64,000 nucleotides of DNA. Origin: Burkholderiales bacterium (GTDB lineage Bacteria > Pseudomonadota > Gammaproteobacteria > Burkholderiales > Burkholderiaceae_C). Location of the stretch: positions 1 to 64,000 of the forward strand of contig JACPOI010000001.1 of assembly GCA_016185015.1 (NCBI GenBank), written 5' to 3'. Position 1 is the stretch's first letter. Each line of letters opens with the position of its first letter. Shown here one piece after another: positions 25,881-33,507 of the stretch. The notes under the pieces are model-generated. The model worked only from the letters and a program-made list of their open reading frames with translations, did no database searches and was not told the DNA's origin. Position numbers and translations under genes: made by a program.

Positions 25881-26864
25881 TTACTTAGGGCGTGCGACCG
25901 ATTCCAGCGGGCGCTTGGCCATGGTCCACTCGTGCATGGAGCCGTCGTAGAGCTTGACCTGCTTGTTGCCCAGCAGTTCGGACATCACGAACCAGGTGCC
26001 CGAGGCTTGGTGGCCGGTGTTGCAGTATGCGATGGTCTGGGCCTGCGGGTCGGTGCCGCTCATCTTGAAGATGTCGCGGTAGGTGTCGGCACCCATGATG
26101 CGGGCGGCGTCGCCACCCTGGCTGGACATCAGCGTGGTGGGCACGTTGCGCGCGCCCTGCAGGTGGCCGAAGGCGCTCACGGAGCCGGGCTTGCTCAGGC
26201 CCAGGAAGGTGGCCGGGTCGCGCGCATCGATGAGCTGGGTCTTGGCGACCAGGGCCTTTTCCACATCGTCGGCCGTGGCGGCCAGCTCGGCGCTGCGGTC
26301 GGCCTTGGCCACCCAGTTGCCTTCGGCCGGCTTGGCGGCAGCGGTGCTGACCTCACGGCCTTCGGCGATCCAGCCGGCGGTGCCGCCGTTGAGCACGGCG
26401 ATGTTGTCTTCACCGTAGACCTTGAACTGCCAGTACAGGCGGGCGGCATCGTTGAAGTCGATCGGCTCCATGCCGGCCGACACGAGCACGACCGGGCGGC
26501 CAGCCTGTACGCCCCAGCCACGCACGAGTTTCTCGAAGTCGGCGCGCTCGGGGATCATGCCGCTGAGCTTGAGGCCGTTGAGGGTGCGCGTAACACGCAC
26601 GGTCTTGTTGTCCACGGGCACGGCGCCGTCGATGTGGCCGCCCAGATCCACCAGCGTCTTCTTGCCGGTCTTCTTGTCGGTCTCGAACTCGGGCGTGAGC
26701 GTGAAGGTCTTCTGGTTGCCGCGCACGTCGAGGATGGTGACGTCAGCGCGGTTTTTCGCGAGCCATTCTCCATCGACCACGGGGCCGGGCACGTTCAGGG
26801 CCAGGGCCCACTGGGACAGGCCCAGCAAGGCGGCGCCTGCGAGGTAACGGATTTGAGTCTTCAT
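25881..26864 (-). CDS. Periplasmic two-domain rhodanese (sulfurtransferase)
   Basis: A 327-residue exported sulfurtransferase with a signal peptide (LAGAALLGLSQWALA) and two rhodanese domains. The catalytic Cys is near residue 281 in TIAYCNTGHQAS, in the C-terminal domain; the N-terminal domain (VTILDVRG, later VVLVSAGMEP) lacks the cysteine, as in thiosulfate and 3-mercaptopyruvate sulfurtransferases. A GDAARIMGADTYRDIF loop precedes the active site. Start set at ATG 26862-26864 because SD AGGAG lies 6 nt upstream. In this context it probably moves sulfane sulfur between the locus proteins. Confidence 0.88.
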   Translation of the reverse strand: MKTQIRYLAGAALLGLSQWALALNVPGPVVDGEWLAKNRADVTILDVRGNQKTFTLTPEFETDKKTGKKTLVDLGGHIDGAVPVDNKTVRVTRTLNGLKLSGMIPERADFEKLVRGWGVQAGRPVVLVSAGMEPIDFNDAARLYWQFKVYGEDNIAVLNGGTAGWIAEGREVSTAAAKPAEGNWVAKADRSAELAATADDVEKALVAKTQLIDARDPATFLGLSKPGSVSAFGHLQGARNVPTTLMSSQGGDAARIMGADTYRDIFKMSGTDPQAQTIAYCNTGHQASGTWFVMSELLGNKQVKLYDGSMHEWTMAKRPLESVARPK

Positions 26865-26883
26865 CTGCATCTCCTGGTAGAAA

Positions 26884-27552
26884 TTATTGAGTCATAGGCC
26901 CGGCTGCCGACAAGGCATCCTGCGGCCAGTTCACGGGAAGGGAACTCCAGACGGCCACGCGCCGGTCGACCCTGGCCTGGGCCGGGGTCTGGTCATGGCG
27001 CGCGCAATGCCGCGCCAAGGCCGCATCACGCTGCAGCAGCATCTGGCGCAAGGGCTTGGCATAAACACGCACCATGTCGGCCAGCCACAGGCCGGCGCCA
27101 GCCAGCGGGCCGCGCAGGCGCAGCTCGAAGTGGGCCAGCTCGCGCACCAGCGAGCTGGCGGCCGCCCAGCGTTCGCCGGTGACCCACTGGTTGGTGGTGA
27201 ACCAGCACAGGGGCAGGCCGCGTGCGTCCAGCGCCAGGCCGGCGAAATGGGTCAGCTTGCCCTGCGGGCTGCGGCGGAACAGGTGGATGTGGCCATGCTC
27301 CTGCGGATGGCGCGCGCTGTCTTGCTCGGTGCGGTCATGCGCATGGAAATAGAACTGCCAGCGGCCGCTGCTGTCGATGGCGTCGTGACGCGGGTAGTGC
27401 GCCCAGACCTCGAAGCGTACGCTGCGCCCGATGAAGGGGAACAGCATGGAGCGCCCCTGGCGCGCCAGGCGCAGCTGCCGCGCGAGCGCACCGTGCGCGG
27501 CGCGCGCGGTGAGGTCAGGCGAGGCGGCTGCGGCCACGACAACTCCGATCAA
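26884..27552 (-). CDS. DUF6969-like protein
   Basis: A 222-residue protein of unknown function resembling DUF6969. Landmarks are WAHYPRHDAIDSSGRWQFYFHAHD and the histidine-rich EHGHIHLF near residue 90, then LALDARGLPLCWFTTNQWVTGE. The clustered His residues could bind metal, but no activity is established. It has no clear signal peptide and probably starts at TTG 27550-27552, overlapping the stop of the Cys-repeat gene by 4 bp, so the two are translationally coupled. That links it to the sulfur operon. Confidence 0.6.
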   Translation of the reverse strand: MIGVVVAAAASPDLTARAAHGALARQLRLARQGRSMLFPFIGRSVRFEVWAHYPRHDAIDSSGRWQFYFHAHDRTEQDSARHPQEHGHIHLFRRSPQGKLTHFAGLALDARGLPLCWFTTNQWVTGERWAAASSLVRELAHFELRLRGPLAGAGLWLADMVRVYAKPLRQMLLQRDAALARHCARHDQTPAQARVDRRVAVWSSLPVNWPQDALSAAGPMTQ

Positions 27553-27860
27553 CGGCTCTTCTTGTCAGCCTCGGGCGCGTTGTCGTCACCACTGCGACGG
27601 CGGCTCTTGCCGGCACAGGGGTTGCCCGCGCAGGGGTTGTCGGCACGGCTGCGGCGCTTGGAACCGGCGCAGGGGTTGCCGCTGCAGGGGTTGTCGGCGC
27701 GGCTGCGGCGTTTGCTGCCGGCACAGGGGTTGCCCGCGCAGGGATTGGCGGCACGCGCCGGAGTGTCGGCCGACTGCGCCACGGCGGCAACCGGCACGGC
27801 GCCCAGGGCGAGGGCCAGGGCCGAGACCAGCGGGGCCAGGGTGTTGCGGGGATGTTTCAT
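27549..27860 (-). CDS. Secreted NPCxG-repeat cysteine protein
   Basis: A 103-residue protein with a signal peptide (LAPLVSALALALGAVPVAAVAQ) and three tandem 18-residue repeats at 39-56, 57-74 and 75-92. Each has the form NPCxGNPCAG followed by a basic SKRRSRAD-like spacer. The six cysteines (41, 46, 59, 64, 77, 82) are paired five residues apart; there are no others. An acidic/basic tail follows. It may bind a metal or carry persulfide in the periplasm, but no function is established. It lies between two yeeE genes and the coupled DUF6969 and rhodanese genes. Confidence 0.7.
   Translation of the reverse strand: MKHPRNTLAPLVSALALALGAVPVAAVAQSADTPARAANPCAGNPCAGSKRRSRADNPCSGNPCAGSKRRSRADNPCAGNPCAGKSRRRSGDDNAPEADKKSR
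27585..27746 (-). repeat. Three 54-bp coding repeats (NPCxGNPCAG units)
   Basis: Three in-frame copies of about 54 bp encode residues 39-92 of the Cys-rich protein. The units are similar at DNA level, sharing a CAGGGGTTG core (plus strand) twice per unit. Slippage between units could vary the number of Cys pairs among strains. Confidence 0.75.
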
Positions 27861-27885: not shown

Positions 27886-28446
27886 TCAGACCTGACCGGC
27901 CGCACGCGCGCGGCGCTCGAACCAGCCCCCGAGCACGAACACACCCACGGCTGCGCCCACCATGGCGGCCAGCACCAGCCACTCGGGCACACCCAGCGCC
28001 TCGGGCAGACGGTCCCCCTTGGTGAATTCGCCGGCGGTCGTGAGCGCGTCGAACTGCGGGAAGAAACCGGCAAAGATGAAGGTACCGATGAACAGGCCAA
28101 CGAAGAACACCAGCGCGTCCAGACGGCCCGTCATCAGGCCCACGGCCGAGGTGCCGGGGCAATAACCGCCCACGGCAAAACCGGCGCCGATCAGCGCGCC
28201 GCCGGCGGCGATGGCCCACAGATAGGGGATGGGCACGTAGAGGCCTGCGGCTTCCACCAGGCCGGCCAGCTCCAGCACGTAGAGGCCGACCGCCGTGAAG
28301 ACGATGGCGCCGAACATGACCTTGAAGACCGACCAGTCGGTCAGGCGGAACTGGGCGGTGAGCTTGCAGCCGCTGCCGAAACCGGCGCGCTCAAGCACGA
28401 AACCGAAACCGAAGCCCAGCAGGATGGCGATGAAGGTCTCGATCAT
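27886..28446 (-). CDS. YeeE/YedE half-transporter, second subunit
   Basis: A 186-residue integral membrane protein of the YeeE/YedE sulfur-transport family with about four to five helices. Cysteines sit in the typical positions: GFGSGCKLTAQF near residue 27 and VGGYCPGTSAVG near residue 95. Half-size YeeE proteins usually work as pairs and move thiosulfate-like or sulfane-sulfur species across the inner membrane. It overlaps the upstream partner by 4 bp (ATGA) and is followed by the Cys-repeat gene. Substrate and direction are inferred from the family. Confidence 0.85.
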   Translation of the reverse strand: MIETFIAILLGFGFGFVLERAGFGSGCKLTAQFRLTDWSVFKVMFGAIVFTAVGLYVLELAGLVEAAGLYVPIPYLWAIAAGGALIGAGFAVGGYCPGTSAVGLMTGRLDALVFFVGLFIGTFIFAGFFPQFDALTTAGEFTKGDRLPEALGVPEWLVLAAMVGAAVGVFVLGGWFERRARAAGQV

Positions 28447-28979
28447 TTGACACCTCCACCACTCAGACGTGCGGCGATCAGGCCAGCGGCGAAAAACGCG
28501 CCGAGGAAAACGAAACCCGCCACGCTGAGCACGGCCGCGCCCGACAGGCCCACGCCGCTGGTGCAGCCGGCGGCGATGCGCGCGCCGAGGCCGGCCAGGA
28601 TGCCGCCGGCCAGCGCCTTGAGCAGGCGGCCGGTACGGCCGGCGCTGGCGGCGCCTTCGATGCGCCAGGCCAGACGGCCAGCCAGCCAGGCCGAGACCAG
28701 CGCGCCCAGGAAGACCCCCAGCACCTGCCAGCTGATCCACGAGGACAGCACGGCGCCGTCTTCGACCATGGGGCCGAGGTAATCATTGGCCAGCGTCCAC
28801 TGCGGCGCGGCGATGTCGCCCAGCCAGGCGGTGAGCCGGGTGGTGAAACCGGTGGCGCCCAGGCCATGGCCGGTCAGGATGAAGGTCAGCAGCAGCACCA
28901 CGCCCAGCGCGAGCGCGGCCAGCCAGGCCGGCCAGTAGGGCTTGCTGCCCGGCAGTTCACATGCATTGGAAATTTCCAC
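28443..28979 (-). CDS. YeeE/YedE half-transporter, first subunit
   Basis: A 178-residue membrane protein, partner of the downstream half-transporter. A signature IAAGCTSGVGLSG segment carries the conserved transport cysteine. Helices include WLAALALGVVLLLTFILTG, VLGVFLGALVSAWLAG and VAGFVFLGAFFAAGLIAA. GTG 28977-28979 is chosen as start because a full AGGAGG lies 4 nt upstream; ATG at 28997 is an in-frame alternative with no SD. It heads the operon downstream of a promoter with an embedded CsoR/CstR-like palindrome. Confidence 0.83.
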   Translation of the reverse strand: MEISNACELPGSKPYWPAWLAALALGVVLLLTFILTGHGLGATGFTTRLTAWLGDIAAPQWTLANDYLGPMVEDGAVLSSWISWQVLGVFLGALVSAWLAGRLAWRIEGAASAGRTGRLLKALAGGILAGLGARIAAGCTSGVGLSGAAVLSVAGFVFLGAFFAAGLIAARLSGGGVK

Positions 28980-29014
28980 TCGACCTCCTGCAACCATAGA
29001 TGATTCGACCCGCG

Positions 29015-29104: not shown

Positions 29105-29575
29105 TCAGCGCAAGGTGGCGCGCGCCTGCGCCAGGCGCTGGTCGAGGTAGGCGCCGTAGAAATCGGGGATGTAACCACCCACCAGGCGCTCGGCCACCTC
29201 GGCACCATCTCGCCCGAAGAAGAGCACGGTGGGCGCGATGCGGATCTTCCATAACCGCACCAGGTCGTCGTGTGTCACGGCCTTGCCGCTGAAATCCAGC
29301 ACCCGGGTGCGGCTGCGCATGTCCACCTGCGCCACGTGCAGGCCTTCCTGCTCATGCATCGGCGCCAGATAGTTGTTGCGCGCGATCTTGCAGAAAGGGC
29401 AGCCCTCCAGGCTCACCATGACCACCAGCGGTTCCCGCCGGGCCAGCGCAGAGGCCAGCTCATCCTTGAGGTCGTGCGCCGCCGGCAACTCGGCCGCCTG
29501 CGCCGTGCCCAGGGCCAGCGGCAGTGCAGCCGCCGCCAGCAGCAGGTCGCGCCGTGCGAAACCCGGGCGCTTCAT
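29105..29575 (-). CDS. SoxW-like periplasmic thioredoxin
   Basis: A 156-residue thioredoxin-fold protein. The N-terminus has a Tat-like signal (FARRDLLLAAAALPLALG). The redox motif CPFC at residues 59-62 follows VVMVSLEG, and the cis-Pro loop is IAPTVLFFG. It resembles SoxW/thioredoxin-like proteins that keep sulfur-oxidation thiols reduced in the periplasm. It overlaps the SoxH-like gene by 4 bp, so the two are coexpressed. It ends 62 bp from the yeeE operon promoter and could be cotranscribed into it. Confidence 0.82.
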   Translation of the reverse strand: MKRPGFARRDLLLAAAALPLALGTAQAAELPAAHDLKDELASALARREPLVVMVSLEGCPFCKIARNNYLAPMHEQEGLHVAQVDMRSRTRVLDFSGKAVTHDDLVRLWKIRIAPTVLFFGRDGAEVAERLVGGYIPDFYGAYLDQRLAQARATLR

Positions 29576-30540
29576 TTGTCGCCCTCCTGCTCCAGCAGCA
29601 GGTAGGTGTTGTAGGCGTTCATGCGGTTGGCCACGCGGAACAGGGGCAGGTGCTCGAACTCGCTCCAGTCGGTGTTCTTGTAGGCATCGTCGAAGGGCTC
29701 CAGGTTGGCGGCGGCCTTGCCCATGCTGGCACGCAGGTAGCGCAGGTAGTCACGCGTGAGCTGCATGTCCTTGCGCGCCTCATGCGAGAGCGGGCCGTGT
29801 CCGGGCACGATGACACCGGCGTCGAAGGTCAGCAGTTTTTCCAGCGCGAGGATCCAGTGCCGGCTGTCGGCCTTGCCCACATAGGGAATGCGGCTGCGAA
29901 ACACCAGGTCGCCGGCGAACAGCACTTTCTCGCCGGGCAGGTAGACGACCAGGTCTTCCGGGGTGTGCGAGGGACCGACGATCCTGATCTGGAACTCCAC
30001 ACCGCCGATTGTCAGCGTCTTGTCGCCCGCCAGCCACTCGTCGGCCTCGACCAGGCGGGTCTCGTCGTTGACCCAGGGGGCCAGCTCGACACGCGAGGCC
30101 TCCAGCCGCAGGCGGGCGGTCTCGGAATTCATGTACTCCCTGGCCGCGCCATGGGCGATGATGCGCGCGCCCTGGGCCTTGAAGGCCTGCAGGCCATAGA
30201 TGTGGTCAGCGTGGTAGTGGGTGACGATCACGTGCGTGACGGGCCGGGGGGTGACCTTGCGGATCTCGGCCAGCAGCCGCTCGGCCAGTGCCGGCGAGCC
30301 CAGCGCGTCGATCACGACCACGCCGGCCGGCGTGACCACAAAAGCCGCGTTGGAGATGAAGTTCTGGTTGGCGGGCGAGCCCAGGGCCGAGACGCCCTCG
30401 ACATACCAGGCCGAGGGCGACACCTGCTGCGCCACCATGGCCGGCCCTTCGGCCCGGGCCCCGGCCGCCAGCGACAGGGCCAGCGCGGCCACCATCAGCC
30501 TCGCAGCCCAGCGGGCCGCATCCATTCCACGTGTACGCAT
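29572..30540 (-). CDS. SoxH-like periplasmic metallo-beta-lactamase-fold hydrolase
   Basis: A 322-residue protein with a signal peptide (LMVAALALSLAAGARA) and a metallo-beta-lactamase domain. The metal motif THYHADH is at residues 107-113, with further ligands in GPSHTPEDLVVYLPGEKVLFAGD and VIVPGHGPLS. Relatives sit in sox and quinoprotein-relay gene sets and are described as SoxH-like; thiol-sulfonate or glyoxalase-II-type hydrolysis is suspected. Start at ATG 30538-30540 with GGAG 5 nt upstream. It is divergent from a full-length YeeE gene. Confidence 0.82.
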   Translation of the reverse strand: MRTRGMDAARWAARLMVAALALSLAAGARAEGPAMVAQQVSPSAWYVEGVSALGSPANQNFISNAAFVVTPAGVVVIDALGSPALAERLLAEIRKVTPRPVTHVIVTHYHADHIYGLQAFKAQGARIIAHGAAREYMNSETARLRLEASRVELAPWVNDETRLVEADEWLAGDKTLTIGGVEFQIRIVGPSHTPEDLVVYLPGEKVLFAGDLVFRSRIPYVGKADSRHWILALEKLLTFDAGVIVPGHGPLSHEARKDMQLTRDYLRYLRASMGKAAANLEPFDDAYKNTDWSEFEHLPLFRVANRMNAYNTYLLLEQEGDK

Positions 30541-30631
30541 TCCAACTCCAAAACGGGGTCGCAGGCCCTGTCCCAAGCCACCTTGCCTTGAGATGGGTCA
30601 AGCCCTTAGGATGCAATTATGTTTAGCATCC

Positions 30632-30665: not shown

Positions 30666-31772
30666 ATGAACCTGGCAACACTTCTTGAGCAGCATGGCGA
30701 AAGCCTGGCGCTCGCCATCGGCGGCGGCGTGATCGGCGTGCTGTTCGGCTTTTTCGCCCAGCGCTCCAAGTTCTGCCTGCGCGCCGCCACCATCGAGTTC
30801 TGGCACCGCAAGTTCGGCGAGAAGCTCTCGGTCTGGCTGCTGGCCTTCTCCACCGCCGTGGTGCTGGTGCAGGGGCTGATCGTGCTGCACGCGCTGGACA
30901 CCAGCACGGCACGCCAGATCGCCGCGCGCGGCAGCCTGTCGGGCGCGCTGATCGGCGGCCTGCTGTTCGGTGCCGGCATGATCATGACGCGCGGCTGCGC
31001 CAGCCGCCTGCTGGTGCTGTCGGCCAACGGCAACCTGCGCGCCCTGCTCTCGGGCCTGATCTTCGCCGTCACGGCCCAGGCCGCACTATCGGGCGCGCTG
31101 GCGCCGCTGCGTCTGCACATCAGCAGCTGGTGGACGGTGGAAGGCGGGCCGACCCGCGACCTGCTGGCCATCACCGGCATCGGTCATTGGGGTGGCTTGG
31201 CCTTCGGCCTGCTGTGGTTCGCCGCCGCGCTCTACTTCGCCATGCGCAGCGGCTGGGGCCTGTGGAAATGGGTGGGCGGTATCGGCACCGGCCTGGCAGT
31301 GGCCGCGGGCTGGTGGTACACCTACCTGATCTCGTCCAACAGCTTCGGCGTGGTGCAGGTGCAGGGCCTGACCTTCAGCGGGCCCTCGGCCGAGTGGCTG
31401 ATGCGCGTGCTGTCCGCGCCGGCGCCGCACATCGGCTTCGACTTCGGCCTGCTGCCCGGTGTGTTCGCCGGCTCCTTCATCGGCGCCCTGGTGGGCCGGG
31501 AGTTCAAGCTTGAAGGCTTCAAGGACGGCTACAGCATGCGCCGCTACATCGCGGGTGCCATCCTCATGGGCTTCGGCTCCATGCTGGCCGGCGGCTGCGC
31601 CGTGGGTGCGGGCATGACGGGTGGCTCGGTATTCGCCCTCACGGCCTGGCTGGCGCTGATCGGCATGTGGGCCGGTGCCGGCCTCACCGACCGGTTGATG
31701 GACAGCCAGAGCACCACGCACCAGACCAGCGAACGGGTGACCGGTACACAGGCCAATATGAAGGCGCCCTGA
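30666..31772 (+). CDS. Full-length YeeE/YedE (TsuA-like) sulfur transporter
   Basis: A 368-residue polytopic membrane protein containing both halves of the YeeE/YedE fold. Conserved cysteines are Cys37 in QRSKFCLRA, the MTRGCASRLL Cys in the first half, and LAGGCAVGAGMTGG in the second. TsuA of this family imports thiosulfate through a chain of cysteines. Here uptake of thiosulfate or a related sulfur species is likely. It is divergent from the SoxH-like gene and carries an ArsR-type box at its promoter. Its presence beside a split pair suggests two transport routes. Confidence 0.88.
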   Translation: MNLATLLEQHGESLALAIGGGVIGVLFGFFAQRSKFCLRAATIEFWHRKFGEKLSVWLLAFSTAVVLVQGLIVLHALDTSTARQIAARGSLSGALIGGLLFGAGMIMTRGCASRLLVLSANGNLRALLSGLIFAVTAQAALSGALAPLRLHISSWWTVEGGPTRDLLAITGIGHWGGLAFGLLWFAAALYFAMRSGWGLWKWVGGIGTGLAVAAGWWYTYLISSNSFGVVQVQGLTFSGPSAEWLMRVLSAPAPHIGFDFGLLPGVFAGSFIGALVGREFKLEGFKDGYSMRRYIAGAILMGFGSMLAGGCAVGAGMTGGSVFALTAWLALIGMWAGAGLTDRLMDSQSTTHQTSERVTGTQANMKAP

Positions 31773-31835: not shown

Positions 31836-31858
31836 CTAAATTAGTTGTCATTGATATT
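31836..31858. promoter_or_regulatory. AT-rich ArsR-type box 2 (fccAB promoter region)
   Basis: Read on the minus strand this is AATATCAATGACAACTAATT, ending in TAG. It shares AATATnA and ACTAAnTTA with box 1 at the same spacing, in inverted orientation. It lies 22 bp before the fccA-like start codon. It is the weakest of the three boxes on the AATATAAG half. Confidence 0.4.
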
Positions 31859-31880
31859 TCTTCAGTCAGAGGAGCACTTC

Positions 31881-32207
31881 ATGCGATTCACTCCATTCCT
31901 GGCGGCCCTGCTGCTGCTGGGCAGCTACGCCGGCAGCGCCACCGCTGCCACGCCGCAGGACACCGTCAAGCTGCACCAGCGTGCACTGGCCGCCACCTGC
32001 GCCAACTGCCACGGCACCGAAGGCCGCACCACCGAAGGTTCGGCCATCCCCTCGCTGGCCGGCATGCCGCGTGAATACATGGTGGCGCAGATGAAGGCCT
32101 TCCGCGAAGGCACGCGTCCGGCCACCGTGATGCACCAGCTGAGCAAGGGACTGACCGACCAGCAGATCGAGACCGTCTCCACCTATTTCTCGACCCTCAA
32201 GCGCTGA
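31881..32207 (+). CDS. fccA: Cytochrome c subunit of flavocytochrome c sulfide dehydrogenase
   Basis: A 108-residue exported cytochrome c with a signal peptide ending near GSATA. It has a single heme site CANCH at residues 40-44. It is monoheme, smaller than the diheme FccA of Allochromatium. A Met-rich C-terminal part (EYMVAQMKAF, VMHQLS) supplies the likely axial Met. SD AGAGGAG precedes ATG 31881. Its position 16 bp before the flavoprotein gene indicates that it accepts electrons from FccB during sulfide oxidation. Confidence 0.85.
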   Translation: MRFTPFLAALLLLGSYAGSATAATPQDTVKLHQRALAATCANCHGTEGRTTEGSAIPSLAGMPREYMVAQMKAFREGTRPATVMHQLSKGLTDQQIETVSTYFSTLKR

Positions 32208-32223
32208 GCAGGAGACCAGAACC

Positions 32224-33507
32224 ATGAAACGACGCAGTTTTGTACAAGCTTCGCTGGCCCTCGGCACCGTGGGCTCCCTGTCGATGGTGGGTTGCGCCAG
32301 CACCGCCACCCTGCCCGCCAAGGCCAAGGTGGTGGTGATCGGCGGCGGCTACGGTGGCGCCACCGCCGCCAAATACGTGCGCATGCTCTCCAACTACCAG
32401 ATCGACGTGGTGCTGGTGGAGCCCAACGACAGCTTCATCTCCTGCCCGATCTCCAACCTGGTGATCGGTGGCTCCAAGACCATGGGCGACATCACCACGC
32501 CCTATGACAACCTCAAGAGCAAGCATGGCGTGATCCACGCGCGCGACCGTGTCACGGACATCGACCGCAGTAAGAAGACGGTCACGCTGGCCGGCGGCGC
32601 CACCCTCGGCTACGACAAGCTGATCGTCTCGCCCGGCGTCGACATGATGTGGGGCAGCATCGCCGGCCTGAAGGACGCCAGCGCCTCGGGCCAGATCCTG
32701 CAGGCCTGGAAGGCCGGCCCCGAGACCGCAGCCCTGCGTCGCCAGCTCGAAGCCATGCCCGACGGCGGCGTCTACGCCATCACGGTCCCGCTGGCGCCCT
32801 ACCGCTGCCCGCCCGGCCCCTACGAGCGCGCCAGCCAGGTGGCCAGCTACTTCAAGAAGGCCAAGCCGAAATCCAAGGTGCTGATCCTGGACGCCAACCC
32901 GGACGTCACCTCCAAGGGCCCGCTGTTCAAGAAGTTCTGGGCCGAGAACTATGCCGGCATGCTGGAGTTCCGCGGCAACCACAAGGCCATCGCCGTGGAT
33001 GCGAAAACGAAGACCGTCAAGTTCGAAACTTCGGATGACGTGAAAGCCGATGTGCTCAACGTGCTGCCGGACATGAGCGCGGGCCTGATCGCCATGCAGT
33101 CGGGCCTGGCCAATGCCAACGGCCGCTGGTGCAGCGTGAACTACCAGACCTTCGAGTCCACCGTTGCCAAGGACGTCCACGTCATCGGCGACTCGGTGCT
33201 CGCCGCACCGGCCATGCCCAAGTCCGGCCACATGGCCAACTCGCACGGCAAGGTGGTGGCCGCGGCCGTGGTGGCCCAGCTCTCGGGCCTGGAGGTGAAC
33301 CCGCAGCCTCTGCTGACCAACACCTGCTATAGCTTCGTCAATGACAAGCTGGTGGTGCACGTGGCCTCGGTCCACCAGTACGTCGCCGAGGAAAAGACCT
33401 TCAAGACCGTCCCCGGTTCGGGTGGCGTGTCCAGCGCCCCCAACGAGCTCGAGGGTATCTACGCCATGAACTGGGCGCAGAACATCTGGGCGGATACACT
33501 GCTTTGA
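32224..33507 (+). CDS. fccB: Flavoprotein subunit of flavocytochrome c sulfide dehydrogenase
   Basis: A 427-residue FAD-dependent enzyme that oxidises sulfide to sulfane sulfur. A Tat-type signal (RRSFVQASLALG) precedes the FAD-binding GGGYGGATAAKY near residue 40. Cys74 in SFISCPISNL lies where FccB binds FAD covalently, and Cys195 (APYRCPPGPYERA) and Cys368 (NTCYSF) match the active-site disulfide pair. The C-terminal FCSD domain extends to residue 427. The signal also carries an MVGCA lipobox-like stretch. It is the catalytic core of the sulfur locus. Confidence 0.92.
   Translation: MKRRSFVQASLALGTVGSLSMVGCASTATLPAKAKVVVIGGGYGGATAAKYVRMLSNYQIDVVLVEPNDSFISCPISNLVIGGSKTMGDITTPYDNLKSKHGVIHARDRVTDIDRSKKTVTLAGGATLGYDKLIVSPGVDMMWGSIAGLKDASASGQILQAWKAGPETAALRRQLEAMPDGGVYAITVPLAPYRCPPGPYERASQVASYFKKAKPKSKVLILDANPDVTSKGPLFKKFWAENYAGMLEFRGNHKAIAVDAKTKTVKFETSDDVKADVLNVLPDMSAGLIAMQSGLANANGRWCSVNYQTFESTVAKDVHVIGDSVLAAPAMPKSGHMANSHGKVVAAAVVAQLSGLEVNPQPLLTNTCYSFVNDKLVVHVASVHQYVAEEKTFKTVPGSGGVSSAPNELEGIYAMNWAQNIWADTLL

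Follow-up and report, generated by a model that had tools for sequence, protein, structure and literature searches.

A cysteine-repeat protein and its DUF6969 neighbour beside YeeE and rhodanese genes of a Burkholderiales bacterium: a candidate two-gene module reminiscent of known precursor and partner systems

The step in which MNIO and DUF2063 proteins modify exported cysteine-containing peptides is cytosolic, RiPPs of the HvfA/oxazolin kind bear a thiooxazole or oxazolone-thioamide on cysteine, and in the periplasm SoxYZ serves as a cysteine-based sulfur carrier. Bufferins are signal-bearing, cysteine-containing, copper-buffering RiPP precursors (PMC12452194), and the EGKCG precursors carry 17-residue repeats with two motifs each and are modified by an MNIO together with a DUF2063 partner (PMC12452194, PMC13097082). 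For thiooxazoles, a mass change of -4 Da per motif is reported (PMC13097082). PmpA and PmpB are half-size relatives of the sulfur transporter family YeeE, and no cysteine-repeat peptide is named with them in the accessible part of their description (PMC11582611). A further point of comparison is CdeC of C. difficile, whose sequence includes a 6-NPC repeat; this cysteine-rich protein of the exosporium self-assembles, and its authors suggest that disulfide bridges may be involved (PMC7677010). Cysteine-rich exosporium proteins of this species are also the subject of a second report (PMC6101409).

The gene analysed here lies in a window of 64,000 nucleotides (the whole stretch of DNA studied) from a Burkholderiales bacterium. 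An earlier note had read it as a secreted protein with paired cysteines, coupled to DUF6969 and following two YeeE genes, and had proposed it as a periplasmic persulfide or metal carrier within a sulfur locus. Its account of the gene itself is borne out. In translation, the repeats span residues 39-56, 57-74 and 75-92, with two NPC motifs in each; the cysteines, six in total (41, 46, 59, 64, 77 and 82), stand in pairs 5 apart with a period of 18; the spacers are basic, SKRRSRAD twice and KSRRRSGD once; and the N-terminus appears Sec-like by eye, with the cleavage motif after residue 28. The stop codon (27549-27551) overlaps the TTG start given for DUF6969 in the list of open reading frames (27550-27552), with an alternative in-frame GTG (27535-27537) visible by eye behind a GGAG, and two half-size PF04143 genes are indeed found upstream. 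On the minus strand the order is metallo-beta-lactamase-fold hydrolase, thioredoxin-like protein, YeeE pair, NPC-repeat protein, DUF6969 and rhodanese, and a divergent set comprises YeeE, cytochrome c and FccB-like genes (Table 1).

Table 1. Coordinates of the NPC-repeat gene, its DUF6969 partner and the surrounding genes in the window.
Feature	Position	Strand	Basis or remark
NPC-repeat protein, 103 aa, candidate exported precursor peptide	27549..27860	-	ATG start
Putative Sec-type signal peptide, residues 1-28, AVA/Q	27777..27860	-	read by eye
Three repeats of 18 residues, NPC[A/S]GNPCAG with a basic spacer in each	27585..27746	-	translated sequence
DUF6969 (PF22308, E 5.3e-45), candidate maturation or loading metalloprotein	26884..27552	-	alternative GTG start at 27537
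Half-size YeeE, PF04143, PmpA/PmpB-like	27886..28446	-	Pfam, scanned as 27886-28437
Half-size YeeE, PF04143, PmpA/PmpB-like	28443..28997	-	Pfam
Two-domain rhodanese-like protein	25881..26870	-	PF00581 E 2.9e-21, 2 stretches
Thioredoxin-like protein, below Pfam cut-off	29105..29575	-	tblastn match in 13/80 named loci
Metallo-beta-lactamase-fold hydrolase	29572..30576	-	SoxH-related quinoprotein-relay models TIGR04559/TIGR04558, below NCBIfam cut-off; 13/80 named loci
Full-length YeeE, PF04143, divergent	30666..31772	+	Pfam
Small cytochrome c	31845..32207	+	PF00034 E 3.7e-07
Flavocytochrome c sulfide dehydrogenase flavoprotein, FccB-like	32224..33507	+	PF21706 E 2.8e-43, PF09242 E 2.4e-23

None of the six cysteines is lost in the window copy or in nine close orthologues (L054-L062), 10 of 10 sequences in all, where the earlier note had named cysteines not conserved between copies as evidence against its proposal, and dN/dS of the gene against the same nine is 0.05-0.34. 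On these two grounds we take the gene to be real and under purifying selection and reject the possibility that the open reading frame is a low-complexity accident. Seven of the nine orthologues have an extra C-terminal NPCAG, which is missing from the window copy and from L054 and L055. AlphaFold2 predicts no fold for the protein (mean pLDDT 51.9) and in Pfam it has no match at E <= 1, features that, along with its six repeated cysteines, set it apart from SoxYZ.

The closest likeness is to the HvfA/oxazolin/fontiphorin group (Buf_EGKCG), which shares with the NPC protein repeats of paired-cysteine 5-mers, a dedicated partner gene and an occurrence mostly in Pseudomonadota, with repeats of 17 residues as against 18 (PMC12452194); the signal peptide of that group has a putative counterpart in the Sec-like N-terminus seen here. 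The two differ in motif, NPC[A/S]G here instead of EGKCG, and in partner, DUF6969 having no detectable similarity to MNIO or to DUF2063-type proteins. Membership of the HvfA family was rejected given a sub-threshold NCBIfam score (NF050188, 17.6 bits vs a cut-off of 95), the motif, and a cluster without MNIO or DUF2063, neither MNIO (PF05114) nor DUF2063 genes being found among the 10 window proteins scanned by Pfam. The bufferins BufA1 and BufA2 were rejected likewise, with no DUF2282 match and a BufA2 model score of 11.7 bits vs 60. An exported cysteine-repeat peptide with a dedicated partner is a known kind of system, and this peptide family and its partner are undescribed in the PMC literature covered, a library with few subscription journals, where no description of DUF6969 (PF22308), of these Pseudomonadota repeat proteins or of the pair was found.

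The sole MNIO match (PF05114) of the window's 96%-complete genome lies on another contig (C4, locus L006, G000:C4:263299-264141). This locus is a bufferin-type operon, with DUF2063-, DUF2282- and DoxX-like neighbours of the MNIO gene recognized by eye, and it could act in trans on the NPC peptide.

The motif itself invites comparison with CdeC, which is larger, belongs to the spore coat of a Gram-positive bacterium and is not linked to DUF6969 in the accessible part of its description (PMC7677010); the likeness is one of motif, and the presence of NPC repeats in so unrelated a setting indicates that the NPC motif alone may arise independently. By analogy with the self-assembly and suggested disulfide bridges of CdeC (PMC7677010), the cysteines of the NPC protein could be structural, cross-linking the repeats into an envelope or matrix protein. 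We give this reading hardly any weight, since there is no spore or exosporium setting here and it leaves both the histidine-rich partner and the metal and sulfur neighbours idle.

That partner belongs clearly to PF22308, the only Pfam family matched by the product of 26884-27552 (153.9 bits, gathering cut-off 27). Its AlphaFold2 model is confident (mean pLDDT 89.6, pTM 0.87), and neither a Foldseek search of the PDB with this model (none at E <= 0.001, best E 0.29) nor a PDB sequence search (best E 0.35) returned a significant relative. Eight residues, H52, H70, H72, H88, H90, H102, D57 and D60, are invariant across 81/81 sequences of the named set and all 20 rows of alignment A1; E85 is kept in 81/81 of the former and not in L050-L052 of the latter. 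In the predicted model, H70, H88/H90 and H102 fall on three successive strands and H72 just past the first; a clustered metal site is plausible. Two assignments to known modification enzymes were considered and rejected. For MNIO, Pfam returned PF22308 only, hhalign against the genome's own MNIO (as a single sequence) gave a probability of 0.16%, and no MNIO-like fold was matched in the PDB; for DUF2063/PME-type 1 (PF09836), Pfam was negative and hhalign against the genome's BufC-type protein (as a single sequence) gave 0.09%.

It is DUF6969, rather than the sulfur genes, that is the steadier partner of the repeat protein, a point on which the earlier note is silent. A scan of named genomes with a DUF6969 alignment yielded at least 583 relatives, the best 80 of which form the named loci and are biased towards the window's clade. 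In 63 of these 80 (best 80 of at least 583), DUF6969 is preceded on the same strand, within 700 b, by an ORF that carries three or more xPC motifs in a stretch of 60 residues, a criterion that was set after the peptides had been seen and that misses other motifs. Six such ORFs occur elsewhere in the 80 loci, five of them (in L090, L109, L125 and, twice, L128) farther off or on the opposite strand in loci counted as lacking an upstream ORF. In L082, NPCGP motifs are present in an ORF that fails the criterion, and no xPC-type peptide was found in the examined sequence of 12/80 loci, which for L111 and L112 covers just 0.6 and 1.2 kb upstream. A looser criterion, a signal-like start plus clustered cysteines, also set after the first peptides were seen, gives 48/80 for the named loci and 13/20, compared with 22/337 control ORF starts; it misses peptides with fewer or wider-spaced cysteines, such as the Polynucleobacter type, and leaves the NPC proteins of L047, L048 and L053 uncounted. 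By this criterion no upstream peptide is present at three order-sample DUF6969 loci (L035, L042, L043), and none of this kind lies beside an Azospirillum plasmid copy of DUF6969. The peptides themselves vary in motif (NPC, KPC/KC, APC and CC-type), repeat number and spacers.

At the level of whole genomes, DUF6969 is present in 20/300 genomes of the order, the window's own included, and the window's NPC protein used alone as query finds matches in 7/300, again counting its own; at three of the loci so matched (L008, L010, L011) a script scan found no NPC-type ORF. In a 398-genome sample of the phylum, a repeat profile matches 30 genomes, DUF6969 20 and both 14. The profile is thus found in 14/20 genomes with DUF6969 vs 16/378 others (Fisher p 1.9e-13, uncorrected for kinship), a result favoured by the origin of the profile, A3, 19 of whose 20 rows were drawn from DUF6969 loci, so that the test is biased. 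Repeat and DUF6969 lie at different places or on different contigs in G315 and G379. Four of the six DUF6969 genomes without a profile match have another cysteine-rich, exported-looking ORF just upstream of DUF6969 (L180, L181, L182, L184), and none was found upstream of it in the remaining two, at the phylum-sample loci L170 and L178. Among the 13 non-window genomes with both repeats and DUF6969, 8 have no PF05114 match, by which the DUF6969 module is, there, independent of any MNIO in the genome.

Lipoprotein-like cysteine-rich peptides lie directly upstream of DUF6969 in L180, L181 and L182, all of family f85, with GCCAAE or CAAGC repeats in the first two and sparser cysteines in the third.

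A conserved putative metalloprotein beside hypervariable, unfolded and exported-looking cysteine-repeat peptides is an arrangement also seen in precursor-enzyme pairs, and on this likeness we propose that DUF6969 would modify or load the cysteines before export. From the pairing of the genes we infer a two-gene module of repeat protein and putative modifying partner. Our preferred reading, held with somewhat less than even confidence, is that the NPC protein may be an HvfA- or bufferin-like precursor, matured or loaded by DUF6969 as a candidate metalloenzyme unrelated to MNIO, that would become a periplasmic binder of soft metal or sulfane sulfur. We take DUF6969 to be cytosolic, as inspection by eye shows no signal peptide. 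Its invariant histidines and aspartates would hold one metal ion or several, and the protein may act on the unfolded peptide at its cysteines, by modification or by metal loading, ahead of Sec export, in parallel to the action of HvfB-HvfC on HvfA. The ligand of the exported product in the periplasm would be a soft one: at bufferin- and mer-type loci, metals of the Cu(I) type; for the window's clade, possibly sulfane sulfur, or else a metal encountered as YeeE, rhodanese and FccB handle thiosulfate or sulfide.

The sulfur setting proposed by the earlier note holds for the window's clade, where the order YeeE-YeeE-NPC-DUF6969-rhodanese recurs and where the NPC-DUF6969 module of the window is inserted beside genes of the PmpAB/SoxT/TsuA type of YeeE-family sulfur transport. 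In tblastn searches with the window proteins, YeeE_b (27886-28446) matches 51, YeeE_a (28443-28997) 53 (two of them weak) and the rhodanese 55 of the best 80 of at least 583 loci, a few of these matches being weak or elsewhere in the locus; with wider seeds, the counts for the same 80 nearest loci are 56 for YeeE and 59 for rhodanese. In a quick tree, a 60-row set around the window's clade has an SH-aLRT of 92 and is not starred, some rows being domain matches with unchecked start codons and L042, L118, L112 and L041 carrying a long-branch warning. The arrangement is not general, however: YeeE is found in 9/20 non-window DUF6969 loci of the order sample and in the loci of 5/20 DUF6969 genomes of the phylum sample (G000, G076, G225, G653, G531; a sixth, G609, gives a weak match of 43 bits), the latter count a lower bound as several loci are only ~3.6 kb long. 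Within these short loci, homologues at the phylum level appear to lie mainly outside sulfur loci, an outcome that the earlier note had named as contrary to its proposal.

The same contexts bear on the possibility of an unmodified NPC protein that carries sulfane sulfur in the periplasm, its cysteine thiols accepting persulfide from FccB or rhodanese chemistry and passing it to the YeeE pair, with DUF6969 as an accessory. Besides the gene order of the window's clade, the sequence rhodanese, YeeE, APC repeat, DUF6969 on pSymB of S. meliloti 1021 and in Devosia (L123/L133) points this way, as do SoxA/TsdA-type cytochromes c with fused NPC tracts and an ArsR-family gene nearby in 18 of the 80 named loci (best 80 of at least 583; PF01022 confirmed for L044), which, we assume, resembles BigR/SqrR. 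We nevertheless think this carrier unlikely, if worth keeping in mind, since YeeE was not found in most DUF6969 loci of the phylum sample (which are short), since it assigns no role to DUF6969, the more constant partner, and since mer and bufferin contexts are left unexplained. A single, sulfur-only role for the whole family we reject, as bufferin, mer, cation-ATPase and cytochrome-fusion contexts speak against it.

Metal-related neighbours are found at several loci. In L037, genes for MerT, a heavy-metal-associated protein, MerR and a flavin disulfide reductase lie close, with MNIO/BufC/BufA1 matches ~8 kb off; in L051, a cation ATPase gene is near the DUF6969 copy; and in L201, the module stands directly behind a BufA1-type operon, in the order DUF2282 precursor, MNIO, DUF2063, DoxX, AKCGA-repeat peptide, DUF6969. 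An NPC protein is also found beside a BufA1-like gene and an MNIO in L007/L212, with no DUF6969 nearby and in a genome outside the 20 DUF6969-positive genomes of the order. Seeds for MNIO, BufC and BufA1 matched 0/80 named loci (best 80 of at least 583). The mer, cation-ATPase and bufferin neighbours, the six cysteines with basic spacers and the invariant histidines of DUF6969 are what one would look for if the NPC protein were an unmodified, metallothionein-like, thiol-rich metal buffer and DUF6969 a metallochaperone or a sensor of metal, loading or regulating that buffer without covalent chemistry. This we consider decidedly unlikely, given that a metallothionein has no obvious need for a dedicated partner kept across very different peptides and that the sulfur-locus clade would go unexplained.

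NPC motifs also occur as parts of cytochromes. They precede a SoxA/TsdA cytochrome c domain (PF21342) in L146, L150, L155, L165, L039 and, with two NPC only, L053, and NPC tracts are fused N-terminally to cytochrome P460 (PF16694) in L109:4656-5729, L128:4033-5100 and L149:754-1899, the last below the cut-off. A module serving cytochrome or redox maturation, with the cysteine-repeat tracts as redox or docking tails of periplasmic c-type and P460 cytochromes, would account for both kinds of fusion; it appears very improbable in view of the DUF6969-adjacent peptides compared, which are mostly free-standing and without a cytochrome domain, the window's included.

Repeats without DUF6969 are found in 16/398 genomes, and a single family, f79, accounts for 14 of the 16. 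Seven loci of this family (L193-L199) have genes for NPC and NPC-SoxA/TsdA-cytochrome proteins in genomes without a DUF6969 match. In several f79 loci the NPC gene adjoins a multihaem-cytochrome-like, a radical-SAM/DUF3641 or a methyltransferase gene (one of each confirmed by Pfam), and the latter two may correspond to ArsM/ArsS. The setting of the f79 loci could be arsenic or sulfur.

Beyond the window, the preferred reading of DUF6969 as a modifying or loading partner may extend further. It is quite possible, although short of probable, that DUF6969 represents a new class of peptide-modifying or -loading metalloenzyme whose fold has no match in the PDB copy searched, and that the NPC, KC, APC and CC proteins form a large, undescribed group of MNIO-independent, RiPP-like periplasmic metallophores or sulfur carriers across Pseudomonadota, S. 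meliloti included. If so, a second, evolutionarily separate enzyme family would stand beside MNIO in the maturation of cysteine-repeat metallophores, a Pfam domain of unknown function would gain a function, and metal-buffering peptides would be linked with periplasmic sulfur oxidation. The module is open to study in a model organism, as S. meliloti 1021 has an APC-repeat/DUF6969 pair on pSymA besides the copy on pSymB.

Two further kinds of neighbour were observed. Genes of the sulfatase-modifying-factor (FGE) type lie near DUF6969 in L108, L109, L111, L114, L120, L125, L207 and L208; FGE-sulfatase-type genes were counted in 6 of the 80 named loci (best 80 of at least 583), with PF03781 confirmed for L120 and for an order-sample gene in L035. 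L108 and L109 also encode an exported-looking cysteine-containing protein, that of L108 weakly cupredoxin-like (Pfam E 0.0062, below the cut-off). DUF3179 proteins, matched with a seed from L203, are encoded near DUF6969 or NPC genes in L203, L202, L201, L123 and L038, with PF11376 confirmed in L203 and L123.
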